A program made the position numbers and the translations under genes. A stretch of DNA of 37,077 nucleotides. It comes from Archaeoglobales archaeon (GTDB lineage: Archaea > Halobacteriota > Archaeoglobi > Archaeoglobales > Archaeoglobaceae). Positions 4,392 through 37,077 of the stretch are shown piece by piece (the first letter of the stretch is position 1; each line of letters starts with the position of its first letter). Location: assembly GCA_003662995.1 (NCBI GenBank), contig QMZC01000013.1:1-37077 (forward strand), read 5' to 3'. Below the pieces are notes generated by a model that ran no database searches, was not told the DNA's origin, and was given only the letters and a program-made list of their open reading frames with translations.

Positions 4392-5435
4392 ATGAAAGTT
4401 AGAATTGGGTTAGTATTGTTGTTGATGTTGGTGATGGTGGTGGGAAGTATAATAGATATAGTAATGGCAAACATTAATAGCAAGCCAGAGGGAGTAATAA
4501 GAATTGGAAAACCAGACAAGAAGACGAAAGAACTGATAAACAATGCTCTAAAAGATGGAAAACTGACTCTTAAGGAATTGGAAAACCTTATAGAAAACGA
4601 TGTTAAGGTACTAGCAACCGATGCACCAGAGGATGTTCTTGAAAAGAAACTCTCAAAAATTAAATATGATTATGACATTAGTATCCTCAGATGTTGCAGC
4701 TAAAATGGAAAAATTGATGGCTGAAGAGTTTAAGCAGAAATACGGTTACCATCCAGATGATGTGGGACTCAAACCTGGAAGCATCAGCAAAGAAGAATTT
4801 GAAAAGATGGTGAGAGGGGGTAAAATAGATACCAATGATGCGATAAGAAAAAACGTTGGTATTTTAGGATGTGGAGACCCAAATAGTCCACCTTATGCCA
4901 GTTCATACGGTACTATTTGGATACACGTGTTTCCTGCTAAAGATGCTGCACGTACCCCGGTGGAAGGGTCTAACTCTATTGATGTTGGGGATGCTAAGGA
5001 TAGATTCAAGGGTTATTTTAAATCAGAATGTATATTTTAGAACATTATAACAAGTGGGATGCTAGTGGAATTGGAACTAACCTGTCTCAACTGCTTGATG
5101 ATTTGGCAAACGAAGCTCCTAGCTATATAGATATAGAATACAACGATATTGTTATTGGCTGGGTTAGATGGGGTAGTAACAACGGGATGGCTTATCTAGA
5201 TGGACACTATGCAGTTTGTGCAGAAGCCCCGGATGTTTGGTATTGGCCAAACTGGCAAGACGACATAGCAGTACAGCATGAGATGTCGCACCTCTTTGGT
5301 GCTCAAGATACTGTAGAATCTTGTGGAAATTGCAATGATGAATGTATAATGGATTACTGGTATGCTTGGCAGGGTTACGCACATTGGGAATGGTATCATA
5401 GAAGTATCATAGATGATAACATTTGGAGGCAATAA
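4392..5435 (+). pseudogene. Secreted metzincin-like zinc metalloprotease, interrupted by two frameshifts
   Basis: Read in three pieces: 4392-about 4690, about 4680-5033 (shifted +1) and about 5028-5435 (shifted back). The first piece begins with a signal peptide (basic MKVRIG followed by a Leu/Val/Met-rich core, likely cleaved near VMA). The last piece has HEMSHLFGAQD encoded at 5277-5309, an HExxHxxGxxD zinc site as in snapalysin-like metzincins, and CIMDYW, a plausible Met-turn, flanked by Cys residues. All three pieces have ordinary codon use and together give about 345 residues, so they come from one gene. The two shifts cancel, so the first and last pieces share a frame. It may be a recent pseudogene, a sequencing error pair, or much less likely recoded. 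The next gene starts right at its stop codon. Confidence 0.72.
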
Positions 5436-30454: not shown

Positions 30455-30587
30455 AAGCGGACTCGGCGTCTATTGTACTTACAGCTTAAAACACTTAGAG
30501 ATTCCTTAAAATTTTCATTTTGGAAGTAAATTAAAACTGCTACAATTGTTGGAATGAGTAGGAGAGAGATGTTTTTAATTTCATCCC

Positions 30588-31010
30588 TCATTCTCTCAAA
30601 TACTGTCCTGAAACCGCGATAAACCGCTTAGGTTTAATTGGTTTATCGTATTTTCTAATATCTTCAAGCTCAATAGCCATCCAGAGCTTCTTCTTTTCTT
30701 TACCCCTACTTCTAATTCCTTTCCATCTTTCTTGGGATTTTATGTATTCTTTAAGCTCTTCTTTAGTTAAGAAGATTCTATCACCAAAAGTATCGAAGAA
30801 CTGCATTGGATTTTCAGACAAGATAACCCTTTTAATCTTCGCCTCTCCAACAAAGCCTGTATCTTCTCTCGATTGATAGAAAACGAATTTCATACCCGGC
30901 TTTAAATATTTCCAGACTGTTGCTGGCTTTACAAACACATTTTTGCCTTTGAAAAATCTATTCATAAACTGTTTTGGGATTGGGTATGTTACCCCAATTA
31001 TTTCAGACAT
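30588..31010 (-). CDS. DUF365 family protein (PUA/ASCH-like fold)
   Basis: 140 residues. Seen: EIIGVTYPIPKQFMNRFFKGKNVFVKPATVWKYLKPGMKFVFYQSREDTGFVGEAKIKRVIL, the DUF365 signature, with the strand pattern of a PUA-like/ASCH nucleic-acid binding domain, then a helical stretch and a C-terminal strand. Function unknown. GGTG lies six bases before the ATG. It is the third gene of a minus-strand operon with the EVE protein and a nuclease, starting 20 bases after the nuclease gene, so it probably works with them. Confidence 0.78.
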   Translation of the reverse strand: MSEIIGVTYPIPKQFMNRFFKGKNVFVKPATVWKYLKPGMKFVFYQSREDTGFVGEAKIKRVILSENPMQFFDTFGDRIFLTKEELKEYIKSQERWKGIRSRGKEKKKLWMAIELEDIRKYDKPIKPKRFIAVSGQYLRE

Positions 31011-31030
31011 TTAAAACACCTCAGATTGAT

Positions 31031-31735
31031 TTACACTCCGAGAGCTGGACTTCTTAATATTTCTAATTTTCCATTATCGTCGATAAAATATATTTCGATA
31101 TCACCAAGCCAAGGACCATATTGCTTTGCATACCTCTCGAAAGTGTTCCTGTTGCCTAATCCAACGATGAATTTCCTCCACTTCCTACCGCTCGATTGTT
31201 CAAGCTTCTCCATCAGCCAGATGTATTCCGATATCGCACTGAACTGTGCTGCCGGAACTGCCCCCTTGAAGGTGTAGTATTTCACATCTCCTACAATAGC
31301 TTTCTCCAGATTAACGAGATCGAATTCTTTGTATTTACCAAAAATGTTCACCTTTCTATTTTCGAGCTTCACATTCAAGTATTTTTCCATAACCTTTTTT
31401 GCTATTTTCTCAGGATTGAAATCATCTGGCTTTTCTGTTTTTTCTTCTTTGAGTTTTTCGCCATGCTCGGCGAGCTTAAACTTGCCACCTTTAAGATCGA
31501 TTAGAAAGGCTCGTCTGTACAGAGTTGGATGAGAATTTGCGGCACTTTTGTTGTTTATCGAAAGAGCCCATAAGTGCAGTTCAATAGTATCATCCTTATG
31601 TGGAGCATCGGGATACTTACTTCGGATGTAGCTTAAAACATCCAAGTATGTGAAAGTATTGCCGCGTCTCCCAAGTTCGTATGCTGCTTCCTTAACGAGT
31701 TCATAAGCGATCTTCCTATAAATTGGAGAGGACAA
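31031..31735 (-). CDS. Predicted PD-(D/E)XK nuclease with N-terminal winged-helix-like domain
   Basis: 234 residues, TTG start (31735). The Shine-Dalgarno GGAGG of this gene lies inside the end of the EVE gene, whose stop is 3 bases upstream. N-terminal part (about 1-90), with NTFTYLDVLSYIRSKYP and NNKSAANSHPTLYRRAFLIDL, looks like a winged-helix DNA-reading domain. C-terminal part (about 110-234) has FDLVN with D139 and GDVKYY with D150 and K152, the D-x10-DxK arrangement of restriction-like nucleases, followed by a helix with QFSAISEYIWLMEKL. Likely the effector of a DNA-targeting system. No known restriction enzyme is clearly recognised. Confidence 0.7.
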   Translation of the reverse strand: MSSPIYRKIAYELVKEAAYELGRRGNTFTYLDVLSYIRSKYPDAPHKDDTIELHLWALSINNKSAANSHPTLYRRAFLIDLKGGKFKLAEHGEKLKEEKTEKPDDFNPEKIAKKVMEKYLNVKLENRKVNIFGKYKEFDLVNLEKAIVGDVKYYTFKGAVPAAQFSAISEYIWLMEKLEQSSGRKWRKFIVGLGNRNTFERYAKQYGPWLGDIEIYFIDDNGKLEILRSPALGV

Positions 31736-31738
31736 AAA

Positions 31739-32185
31739 TCAACCCTCCATAGATTTCACAATCACCCTGTAATCCTCCTCAGGAATCTCCCTCATCGCCT
31801 TCCCCATCAAATGCCCTGACCATTTTCGCTTGTTCGTGATGAACTTCAGCTTCGGAATCAAAGGTTTAAACTCAACAGGTTTGGAGAATATTTTGATGGG
31901 TTTGAGCTTTATGCGGAGTGGGAACGTTTCATTACTCATCCTTTTTGGAGTTTTGAAAATTCTCGATGAATCCCTGAACACTTCCGATGCTGCTTCATAA
32001 ACTGCTACAATTCTCGATGGTCTAATCTCTCCATCCACGTTTTCCTGCTTGAGGTAAATCAAAAGCTTATCTCCGGGTTTTACCCTCACTATGGTGTTCT
32101 TGTGCCTTTCTGGTACGCCCCAGATGTTCTTCTGCTTGGTTACTTTCCAGTTATCTTCGTTGGTTATGCAGAGCCAGTAAACCAT
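31739..32185 (-). CDS. EVE domain protein
   Basis: 148 residues of the EVE (UPF0310-like, PUA-superfamily) fold. Seen: [46 protein letters not shown] (about 3-48), with the WGV and GD turn typical of EVE, then [16 protein letters not shown] and a C-terminal [16 protein letters not shown] with the family's final helix. EVE domains bind modified bases and are often fused to or encoded beside restriction nucleases. A perfect GGTGAT lies three bases upstream of the ATG. First gene of the EVE-nuclease-DUF365 operon and divergent from hsdM. Confidence 0.85.
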
Positions 32186-32188
32186 AGA

Positions 32189-32194
32189 ATCACC
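32189..32194 (-). promoter_or_regulatory. Shine-Dalgarno of the EVE gene
   Basis: GGTGAT on the minus strand with 3-base spacing to the ATG at 32185; a strong match to the archaeal 16S tail, implying this operon is well translated. Confidence 0.55.
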
Positions 32195-32265
32195 ATTGAC
32201 TAATCAAATAGAAAATATTTAAATGTTTGTCATTGAATAATGTAAAAGATTATTCTGGTGGAAGT

Positions 32266-33153
32266 ATGCAGGAAAAGCTAACAGATTATGCTGAAATTGA
32301 GATTTCGAGGGATGAGATTGACAGAGCATTGAAAAGAGCAGCAGATTTGATAAGAACGCGTGTTGATTACAAGTACATTCTAATCCTTTTGTTCTTGAAA
32401 AGATTGAGCGATGAGTGGAAAATCGAATATAAGAATGCTGTCGTTAAACTGATGCAAGAGGGGTTGGGGGAAGAGGGGGCTAAAGAGCTGGCTAAAGATC
32501 AATCCTTTAACAGATTTAATTACCCAGAAAAGTACACTTGGGATAAGCTCAGAGAGAACATAAACGAATTGCCTATAAAACTTTCAGAAGCTTTGAAGTT
32601 GATTGCAGAGAAAAATCCTGAGTTGCTGGGCGTTGTTGATAGGCTCGATTTTCTGGAGTTTACAAGGCATAAGGAGAATTTTGAGATATTGAAACAATTA
32701 TTTGAGTTGTTTAGCGGCTTACAATTGGGAAATGCATCTCCAGACGTTTTAGGAGATTCTTATGAGTGGATTTTGAGATATTTCGCCCCTCAAAAGGCTA
32801 AGGAGGGAGAAGTTTATACACCAAGGGAGGTTGTAAGGTTATTGGTTGAACTACTAAATCCCCAGCCAAAAGATGAGGTTTACGATCCAGCAGTTGGTTC
32901 TGGAGGTATGTTAATAGCATCCTATTACCATGTTAAAGAAAGATAGGGTGAGGAGGGTGCTAAGAAGCTCTTTCTTTATGGTCAAGAGGTTAATGCAACA
33001 ACTTTCGCAATTGCAAGGATGAATGCGATAATTCATGGTATTAGAGATGTTGAGCTTGCTGTTGGAGATACTTTACTAAGCCCGAAGTTTAAGGAAGGTG
33101 ATAGCTTTAAACAATTCAACATAGCAATAGCAAATCCACCTCCAAAAACAGGA
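32266..33153 (+). pseudogene. hsdM: Type I restriction-modification DNA methylase subunit HsdM, broken and truncated
   Basis: From ATG 32266 (GGTGG four bases upstream) the frame reads an HsdM N-terminal helical domain (RAADLIRTRVDYKYILILLFLKRLSDEW) and the start of the methylase domain (EVYTPREVVRLLVELL and DPAVGSGGML, SAM motif I). A TAG at 32944-32946 interrupts, but the same frame continues through GEEGAKKLFLYGQEVN, DTLLSP and NIAIANPP, the NPP catalytic motif at about 33133-33141. There the family sequence ends: the target-recognition and C-terminal parts are missing, and the frame runs straight into a HepT remnant. HsdS and HsdR are not in the window. Confidence 0.88.
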
Positions 33154-33373
33154 CTAAGGGTGCCTGAAGACTATGCAGACACTTTTAGAGTTGTATGAGA
33201 CAAATTTCTTTGATGAAGAATTTACTGAAAGGCTTGAGATGATGGCGAGGTTTAGGAACAGGCTTGTCCACATCTATTGGGATGTTGATGATGAAGTTGT
33301 TTATCAGATACTGCAAAAGGATATTGAGGATCTGGAATTGTTCTTGCAGAAATTTATGGATAAGCTAAGATAA
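33151..33373 (+). pseudogene. HepT (HEPN, DUF86) toxin C-terminal remnant
   Basis: GLRVPEDYADTFRV at 33151-33192 is in the hsdM frame, then a frame change (apparently two lost bases near 33190) leads to LYETNFFDEEFTERLE and MARFRNRLVHIYWDVDDEVVYQIL, ending at 33373. This contains RNRLVHIYW, the R-x4-6-H-x-Y catalytic motif of HepT RNase toxins of the MNT-HEPN modules. The first half of HepT and the MNT antitoxin are missing. It is a relic created when a deletion joined hsdM to hepT. Confidence 0.8.
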
Positions 33374-33537
33374 GCTTTATTTTACATCGAACTTTGGTGG
33401 CAAATTAATATTAAATGGGTAAGAAGAGAAGTTCGAAACACTTTTTATTGAGGATTAGATTGAAAAATGATTCGCTTCTTAATCTCAATTTTTAAAAACT
33501 ACGTCAAATTAAATGTAGATTTTAGCAATAAAAACCC

Positions 33538-33573
33538 ATAAATTTAAAAGCATACAAATATATATTTGGTGGT
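33538..33573 (+). promoter_or_regulatory. Promoter and Shine-Dalgarno of the virus-like structural gene
   Basis: TAAATTTAAAAG at about 33538-33550 and a second AT-rich CAAATATATATTT (about 33555-33567) are TATA-like. GGTGGT at 33568-33573 is a Shine-Dalgarno five bases before ATG 33579. Confidence 0.45.
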
Positions 33574-33578
33574 AGAAA

Positions 33579-33848
33579 ATGGTTAAAGTAACTAATGTAT
33601 TTGGTGATGAGTATTCAGGAAAGGTAGGAAATTCAGGCGTATTCGCAAAGTGGAAAGGTAGACAGTACAGAAGGAAGTACGTAATTCCAGCTAACCCAAG
33701 AACACCTAAGCAGCAAGAAGTAAGAAGTTCATTTGATAATGCTGTACAGTTGTGGAAGGAGTTTTTACAGCCAATGAAGAAGAACTACAACTTCTTAGCT
33801 GTACCAAAGCAGATTAGTGGCTTTAACATGTGGGTTTCCAGATACTAA
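33579..33848 (+). CDS. Virus/prophage-like structural protein, first segment (in-frame TAA ends it)
   Basis: 89 residues with basic, aromatic content: GKVGNSGVFAKWKGRQYRRKYVIP then ANPRTPKQQEVRSSFDNAVQLWKEFLQPMKKNYNF. The GKxGNxxFxKWKGxxxxRxYVxPxNPxTPxQ pattern is common in phage and virus structural proteins. It ends FNMWVSRY-TAA, but the same frame continues at once with SLVTKGLPAPQLPKIGF through 34190. No Shine-Dalgarno precedes the second part. So this is likely one gene cut by a nonsense codon, or a readthrough product. Confidence 0.6.
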   Translation: MVKVTNVFGDEYSGKVGNSGVFAKWKGRQYRRKYVIPANPRTPKQQEVRSSFDNAVQLWKEFLQPMKKNYNFLAVPKQISGFNMWVSRY

Positions 33849-33851
33849 AGC

Positions 33852-34190
33852 TTGGTAACTAAGGGATTACCAGCCCCACAGCTACCAAAGATTGGATTTA
33901 AGCAGATTTGCTCAGGAACAACGGATGTTAGCGATGAGGCAATTCCAAATGGAAATGGTCCACACACCTTAGCAAACAACCCAGTTAAGTTAGCTTCACT
34001 AACTTACACACCTGGCTCAGGAGATCCAACAATTGATTTCATTGTTGAAGTTGATAGAGGAGTTGTTAGAGTTTTAGCAGCAAAAACTGGAATTCTAAAA
34101 ATTGACTACACGGCTTTGGGAAGAGAAGTTACAGGAGAAGAGTTAGCAACAGATCCAGAGGCTAACACAGAATACAGAGTGAAATATTGA
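33852..34190 (+). CDS. Virus-like structural protein, second segment (same frame, between TAA and TGA)
   Basis: 112 codons open from TTG 33852 in the same frame as the first segment. Reads LVTKGLPAPQLPKIGFKQI and a beta-rich region with TYTPGSGDPTIDFIVEVDRGVVRVLA, ending with EANTEYRVKY before TGA (34188-34190). A TTG start with no Shine-Dalgarno is poor, so separate translation is doubtful. Content suggests capsid or tail beta domains; no closer family is recognised. Confidence 0.5.
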   Translation: MVTKGLPAPQLPKIGFKQICSGTTDVSDEAIPNGNGPHTLANNPVKLASLTYTPGSGDPTIDFIVEVDRGVVRVLAAKTGILKIDYTALGREVTGEELATDPEANTEYRVKY

Positions 34191-34199
34191 CCAATCGAT

Positions 34200-34556
34200 T
34201 TGCAGTCTGTCAAGATTTACATTGACACTACAGAACAAGATGCTATAGAAGTTGATTTGAGAAATGGGAAGGTTTACTTCACAAAAACAGCCCCATCTTC
34301 AGGTTCAGCAGCAGTTAGCTATTCATACCTAAACACACCGATTGAGGATGCTAAGTGTGAAATAAGGAAGGCTGGCTCTTCATTCTTGACATTCAGGGAG
34401 TACAGCAATGAAGATGGATCATTAATCTTGGCACAAACAGTTGAGGATCAAAACTACGACATGACAATTGAGGCTGCAGGCTACGCATCTTACATTGTGG
34501 CAAACAAGTCAGCAGTTGACGTTGTGAAAGACGTTTGCATTGTAATGTCCACGTAA
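34200..34556 (+). CDS. Virus-like structural protein, third segment (same frame, after TGA)
   Basis: 118 codons from TTG 34200, again in the same frame. SVKIYIDTTEQDAIEVDLRNGKVYFT then APSSGSAAVSYSYLN is a typical repeat unit of virion and adhesin beta domains and follows naturally from EYRVKY in the second segment, across the TGA. The rest, CEIRKAGSSFLTFREYSNEDGS and YDMTIEAAGYASYIV, resembles a carboxypeptidase-regulatory-like domain. Ends at TAA 34554-34556. No Shine-Dalgarno. Confidence 0.5.
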   Translation: MQSVKIYIDTTEQDAIEVDLRNGKVYFTKTAPSSGSAAVSYSYLNTPIEDAKCEIRKAGSSFLTFREYSNEDGSLILAQTVEDQNYDMTIEAAGYASYIVANKSAVDVVKDVCIVMST

Positions 34557-34652: not shown

Positions 34653-34896
34653 ATGAACTTGGATTCAACTACTCTGCAGCTAATCTTGAATTTGATAATC
34701 TATCTAATAACTGTAATCTACTTCTTCGCTTCCTTAAAAGTTAAGGTTGATGTTTTAATCAAAGAGTTTTCAGAAGTTAAATTCAAACTGCATAGACATA
34801 GCATCAATTACCGCAAAGCTTGAGCAGATTGAGAGGAAAATAGAAAGGATTTGCAATCTGATTGATGAAAGTCTATACAGAAAGAACGGTAGATGA
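34653..34896 (+). pseudogene. Small membrane plus coiled-coil protein, frameshifted (XhlA-like type)
   Basis: From ATG 34653: MNLDSTTLQLILNLIIYLIT followed by VIYFFASLKVKVDVLIKEFS is one membrane helix and the start of a coiled coil, ending at TGA 34821-34823 after a frame change around 34785-34790. One base shifted, the natural continuation is IDIASITAKLEQIERKIERI then CNLIDESLYRKNGR, ending at 34896. Such short helix-plus-coil proteins occur in viral tail/lysis modules. Not known whether the shift is a mutation or recoding. It overlaps the start of the next gene (34865). Confidence 0.55.
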
Positions 34897-35980
34897 AGAC
34901 TATTCTGCCTACAAACATCAGGATAAATCGGGAAGACGATTTTTTGTAAGAAGGAGAATTAAGCCAGATAGAGTAGGTAAACGAAGCAACTTAACTCAAG
35001 ACTTGGCTGTTAAGGAAGCTCATCGCTTAGCCTTAGAAAAATGGAAAGATTACGACATCTATGCACAATCAACTTTCAAACTTATGAAGGTGAAATCACC
35101 GTTAACAGGAAAAGTTCTTTCAGGCTATCAGTTGGCAGTAGCAATAAACAAGTGGTTGATTGAGAGAGGTAAAGGTTCTTTAGATGAATGGTATCTTGCT
35201 GCATTCAAGCTGTTAGATTCTAACAACAATCCAATAATAAATGCAAATGTAAACATCTACTCAACTTTAGCACAACAATGGTACAATTTAACTCTAAAAT
35301 CAGATGAATTTGGTTGCATAGGACCGTTTGCGATCTTCCCAAAACTTGACAATTATGTAATTGAGATAGAATATGAAAACAATGGAACAAAGAAGGTTGT
35401 AATTTCAACTTTAAAGAGAACAAAATTTGGTGATGAAGAGATTCCGATTAAACGATTCTTATTCACAACTCATTGCAAAGATGAATACGATCTAAAGAAG
35501 GCTATAAGCGGAATTGCAGGTTGCCATCCAAATCAAGTTACGATATGGCAGGATGCATGCAACGAATTCAACAGGTTTTACTTTGTGAGGTATAGAAGTT
35601 ATACTTACTACGGATGGACGTACAGATTTGATGTTAACTACTGGCTCGGATGCACATCAGCAACCGTTTCACAAGGAAGAGTTGTTTTAGCAACGAGGTT
35701 GGATGATGAAGGATTTAATTGTGGAGAAGGAGTTTTGTTTGCGAGGATTAGCTGGATGGCAACGTGGGGTTATTGGTATTCTGAGACAAGACAAAGGATG
35801 TACAATGCTGAATTTGCCTTCTATGATGTAGATTACTTGCAAATGCCATTAAACAAACGTTACTACTTTCCAGAAGCTGGAAGCAAAATTTTACCACCGT
35901 ATCAACTAAATGCAAAGCTTATCAGCAAAATAAGCAGTATAACTCTTGCAGATGAAGACTATTCGATAGAATTGAGATGA
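34865..35980 (+). CDS. Large virus-like structural protein of unknown family
   Basis: 371 residues, start ATG 34865, mixed Tyr/Trp-rich. N-terminal region: HQDKSGRRFFVRRRIKPDRVGKRSNLTQ, reminiscent of the KWKGRQYRRKYVIPANPRTP pattern in the 33579 segment, so perhaps the same module. Then KLLDSNNNPIINANVNIYS (a carboxypeptidase-regulatory-like beta domain, about 115-170), and a C-terminal domain rich in Tyr/Trp/Arg (about 205-370) with FVRYRSYTYYGWTYRFDVNYWLG and four or more Cys. The latter could be a receptor or surface binding part. No catalytic motif is visible. The frame remains open for 14 codons past its TGA. Confidence 0.65.
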   Translation: MKVYTERTVDEDYSAYKHQDKSGRRFFVRRRIKPDRVGKRSNLTQDLAVKEAHRLALEKWKDYDIYAQSTFKLMKVKSPLTGKVLSGYQLAVAINKWLIERGKGSLDEWYLAAFKLLDSNNNPIINANVNIYSTLAQQWYNLTLKSDEFGCIGPFAIFPKLDNYVIEIEYENNGTKKVVISTLKRTKFGDEEIPIKRFLFTTHCKDEYDLKKAISGIAGCHPNQVTIWQDACNEFNRFYFVRYRSYTYYGWTYRFDVNYWLGCTSATVSQGRVVLATRLDDEGFNCGEGVLFARISWMATWGYWYSETRQRMYNAEFAFYDVDYLQMPLNKRYYFPEAGSKILPPYQLNAKLISKISSITLADEDYSIELR

Positions 35981-36666: not shown

Positions 36667-37007
36667 ATGCCAGCATGGCTATTAATTGAAATAGCGTGGG
36701 AGCTTGTTAGCGATGCAAGAACTGTATGCTCCAACATTATGTTTCTTTACGAAGAGGCAATGCAGATATGCAATTTTGCAATCTACTTAGCCTTAAACAA
36801 CAAAGACTACTTAGCTGTCAAAAAATTGTGAGCTATCTAAACGAAACTTTGTTGCCAGAAGCTGAAGAATTCGCTATGCTTTGGGGTTACATTGCATATC
36901 CCGTTAACATTACGTTTGAGGCATTCTACCAAGCAGAGAGGAAGTTTGTGGATACAATGTTGTTAATTCTTAAAGGCAAAGAAGGAGAAGTGGAAGAAAC
37001 AACATAA
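36667..37007 (+). pseudogene. Hypothetical protein with a -1 frameshift at an A6 run
   Basis: From ATG 36667: MPAWLLIEIAWELVSDARTV then CSNIMFLYEEAMQICNFAIY, LALNNKDYLAVKKL, stop at 36829-36831. Reading -1 at the A6 run (36820-36825) continues as IVSYLNETLLPEAEEFAMLWG and YIAYPVNITFEAFYQAERKF to TAA at 37007, giving about 113 residues. An all-helical protein of no known family. Could be a slippery-site product, an indel, or a read error in a homopolymer. Nothing further is recognisable after 37007. Confidence 0.5.
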
Positions 37008-37077
37008 TCCAGAAAATCAGGTTGATAGAGAGCGTGGAGCGATAAAAAGCGAAAAAAGTTAAGGAATACTAAAGCAA

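Follow-up and report, generated by a model that had tools for sequence, protein, structure and literature searches.

Viral structural-protein frames divided by a stop codon are familiar from coat-protein readthrough, of which the A1 protein of phage Q-beta is an example, and virus-derived genes inactivated by nonsense and frameshift mutations occur in degraded proviruses. The locus described here invites comparison with both. Like the Q-beta A1 frame, it is a structural-protein frame interrupted by a stop; unlike that frame, it carries two stops, one of them TAA, lies in decayed surroundings, and comes with no evidence of an extended product. With degraded proviruses it shares several broken genes within a mobile-element island that ends near a tRNA gene. 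It differs from them in that the element is only partly assembled and neither an integrase domain (domain search) nor a tRNA-derived att repeat (repeat search of the window) was found. According to a 2021 review of recoding in archaea, readthrough has been demonstrated for selenocysteine and pyrrolysine only, and archaeal viruses feature solely through frameshifting (PMC8211752). Against this background, we consider it very probable that the interrupted frame is an ordinary pseudogene, namely a recently inactivated virion-surface or fibre-like gene in a decaying provirus remnant.

A single frame with two internal stops

The window analysed (37,077 nucleotides) corresponds to the entire contig C13; the archaeal genome to which it belongs is a draft of 2.6 Mb in 187 contigs. 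Translation of positions 33579-34556 on the forward strand yielded a single frame of 326 codons, stops included, with just two internal stops, TAA as codon 90 (33846-33848) and TGA as codon 204 (34188-34190), ahead of a terminal TAA at 34554-34556. A random frame of the same base composition would be expected to hold about 22 stops (P = 2.4e-8 for two or fewer), and the other five frames over the same interval have 11-33. Both the translation and the stop statistics thus confirm what the earlier note had reported, one frame split by TAA and TGA without further internal stops. Measured from stop to stop, the three segments comprise 89 codons (33579-33845), 113 codons (33849-34187), and 121 codons (34191-34553). 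The first of these lengths agrees with that note, whereas its 112 and 118 for the other two had been counted from the first TTG.

All three segments are coding-like. Their in-frame codon-usage scores of 0.13, 0.30, and 0.24 fall inside the range of the intact chromosomal genes of the window, which served as reference (0.12-0.44), while every other frame scored below zero. Inspection of start sites placed a Shine-Dalgarno-like GGTG at 33568-33571, 7 nt upstream of the ATG of segment 1. No internal Shine-Dalgarno or restart site was found: the TTG codons just past both stops have 3-nt matches only, leaving segments 2 and 3 without start signals of their own, and the observation that only the first segment has a Shine-Dalgarno was therefore upheld.

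The encoded protein and its relatives

Residues 1-65, within segment 1, resemble the N-terminal domain of ORF2 of phage N55_L8635_C17.5 and of proteins from a locus of Candidatus Contendobacter SB13 (L007), with 49-52% identity over 47-59 residues. These phage-type proteins have in common the N-terminal motif KWKGRQYxRxxVIPANPxTxxQxxVR; they differ from the interrupted gene in having other C-terminal parts and in that their copies are uninterrupted. The segment is also weakly similar to Pfam DUF6266 (PF19781), at 16 bits, which is under the gathering cut-off of 23.4. On the Contendobacter contig, at least five consecutive short genes encode related N-terminal domains followed by differing C-terminal parts. 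The family of this domain looks like a phage-type module that is widespread yet has no name.

Further along, residues 175-256 (34101-34346) form a fibre-type domain that spans the TGA. This region matches a domain with the pattern GTGDGSTTxFxL..PVxxGSxTVYVDG in a 536-aa fibre-like protein of another archaeal genome (G016, contig C48; 33-35% identity) and in a second protein of a further one (G052, contig C20; 26% identity), the remainder of both proteins being unlike ours. Neither protein is interrupted at the TGA. Both alignments pass it ungapped with a sense residue at that position, and it follows that the TGA bisects a domain. A PHROG virion structural protein profile matches residues 188-253 (E = 0.0016). 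Together with the fibre-like proteins of the two other archaeal genomes, this profile lends weak support to the description of the gene as virus-like and structural, and its product may have served at the virion surface or as a fibre.

For the TAA, one distant relative of the N-terminal domain aligns across the position with sense codons, although the alignment is weak. Homologues with sense codons at the stops, named in the earlier note among the checks to make, were accordingly obtained for the TGA (two distant ones) and, for the TAA, as this one weak and distant alignment. No uninterrupted close full-length homologue was present in 55 genomes of the family, 394 genomes of the phylum, viral contigs, phages, or plasmids, and the search of genome contigs for one returned a single N-terminal-domain relative. 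For this reason, continuity over the first stop rests on the weak alignment and on the character of the sequence. A PDB sequence search with the protein gave no meaningful match, and a single-sequence AlphaFold2 model with a mean pLDDT of 34.8 was discarded as useless.

A broken island at the contig end

The interrupted gene, whose locus occurs once in the assembly, sits 2.5-3.5 kb from the end of the contig. From position 1 to about 32 kb the contig is chromosomal, with genes for proteasome alpha, exosome subunits, the CCA-adding enzyme, DNA polymerase B, and eIF6, and the ∼20 chromosomal genes in this part are intact, their Pfam models having matched essentially full length. Beyond them, on the forward strand like the other broken genes and the 372-aa ORF described below, lies a broken hsdM (32227-33198) with an in-frame TAG at 32944-32946. 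Its frame reads on to an NPP motif, after which HsdM sequence is lost, and runs into a HepT-like fragment (33173-33373) in which only the C-terminal half remains (profile positions 64-119 of 120). This junction, at the island's edge, is the scar of a rearrangement, as opposed to an error in single bases. Downstream of the interrupted gene, a small gene for a predicted membrane protein (34653-34896) is frameshifted near 34790, its halves lying in different frames. It is followed by an uninterrupted 372-aa ORF (34862-35980) without a notable match in Pfam or PHROG, a nuclease-like ORF, and the last gene of the window (36667-37007), frameshifted near 36835. The latter is a copy of an intact 112-aa gene on contig C117 (870-1208), to which its two halves, in different frames, each align. 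Four neighbouring genes are hence broken and the ∼20 chromosomal genes are not, which limits the lesions to the island.

Neither the 372-aa ORF nor the 112-aa gene has relatives among viral contigs or phages. A genome of another archaeal family (G236, contig C160, L035) does have a relative of the 112-aa gene, which bears an extra C-terminal domain and adjoins a large multi-domain surface-like protein; no copy of the interrupted gene was seen in the stretch of that contig that was read. Beside the island, a DUF365/EVE-like region (30588-32185) has DNA relatives of 67-88% identity on contigs C97, C52, and C108 of the same assembly (G000), and by this similarity we take it to be a locally repeated gene cluster. 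A genome of the same genus (G001) has no DNA match to 30500-34000 and hence offers no empty site for comparison.

The final 123 bp of the window (36955-37077) overlap exactly with the start of C117 (positions 1-123, L009), and no other contig of the assembly shares them. This exact overlap looks like an assembly break between adjacent contigs, the alternative being a shared repeat. Going by the match, C13 and C117 probably lie next to each other in the genome, with the remnant spanning both. On C117, an intact 186-aa gene shows 38% identity to segment 1 at its N-terminus and has a further C-terminal part; after it come the intact 112-aa gene, more ORFs, and a tRNA-Phe gene at 4393-4466. A third trace lies near a tRNA-Arg gene on contig C44 (L010, 123-179), where 57 nt that are 86% identical preserve a truncated start of the interrupted gene, which suggests a second, almost fully lost element. 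In our reading, the traces on C13, C117, and C44 are what is left of proviruses that have decayed to different degrees.

Readthrough, error, or decay

The earlier note had raised the possibility of a readthrough array producing nested virion proteins. What speaks for readthrough of the two stops, whether programmed or tolerated, is that the frame is open except for them and coding-like on either side, and beyond the open frame itself we found no positive evidence. Decoding of the stops as selenocysteine or pyrrolysine was rejected since no tRNA-Sec or PylS scored above cut-off in a search limited to the Sec and Pyl machinery, in which the best tRNA-Sec matches were ordinary tRNAs. The RNA 3′ of the stops showed no notable structure (z = -0.69 and -0.11), restart sites are absent after both, neither stop is conserved in the relatives found, all of them distant, and the neighbouring genes are themselves broken, in part by frameshifts. 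With no Sec/Pyl machinery, downstream structure, or restart site found and the stops not shared by these distant relatives, the proposed array is unsupported, and we regard readthrough of both stops as highly improbable. Its fuller form, in which the TAA and TGA are read through at useful frequency, so that the virion surface protein is made in nested versions, and the neighbouring frameshifts are recoding sites as well, strikes us as slightly more improbable still. A different way to make sense of the first stop is that the TAA is the natural end of a stand-alone 89-aa protein consisting of the N-terminal domain, and that only the downstream part is debris. Proteins of ∼100 aa with a related domain do exist in the Contendobacter locus, and segment 1 has its own start and Shine-Dalgarno-like site. 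However, the frame continues open and coding-like straight past the TAA with no start signal there, and the intact 186-aa paralogue on C117 has an additional C-terminal part, making this reading very unlikely.

The strongest rival, itself unlikely, puts the stops down to errors of consensus or assembly, or to the variants of one strain, with most of the population retaining an intact gene. The draft state of the genome, with its many contigs, and the nearness of the gene to a contig end are consistent with such an origin. Against it stand lesions that cluster in the island and spare the chromosomal genes of the same contig, a rearrangement at the hsdM/HepT junction, and the single copy of the locus in the assembly. 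Recent decay, the other option in the earlier note, is supported by the coding-like sequence on both sides of the stops, by a TGA that splits a domain whole in relatives, and by broken neighbours next to an intact chromosomal part. Assuming that 4-6% of substitutions create stops and that 0.03-0.2 frameshifts arise per substitution (an assumed range), two nonsense lesions without a frameshift have P ∼0.03-0.43 under decay. The pattern is unsurprising on that account, though tidier than that of the neighbours. Also counting against decay are the uninterrupted 372-aa ORF adjoining the gene, the lack of a close uninterrupted relative of the whole protein in the collections searched, and the draft state of the genome.

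Our preferred explanation, decay, would then run as follows. Originally, there would have been one gene for a virion-surface protein of the fibre or decoration type, in which an attachment domain at the N-terminus preceded domains of the beta type. Two nonsense mutations would recently have inactivated it within a decaying provirus remnant that starts at about 33.4 kb, past the hsdM/HepT scar, and probably crosses the contig end into C117, up to the tRNA-Phe gene. Translation would stop at the TAA and leave an 89-aa fragment at most, with the rest untranslated and the function presumably lost. Since the untranslated part is still coding-like, little time would have passed since inactivation; it is only on this preserved coding signature that the word recent rests.

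True readthrough would, going by the 2021 review (PMC8211752), be without precedent among archaeal viruses, and nothing that we found points there. As a decayed provirus gene, the interrupted frame has little importance beyond annotation. Even so, it bears witness to a lineage of viruses that shares this N-terminal domain with bacterial phages and that has hardly any sampled archaeal relatives.
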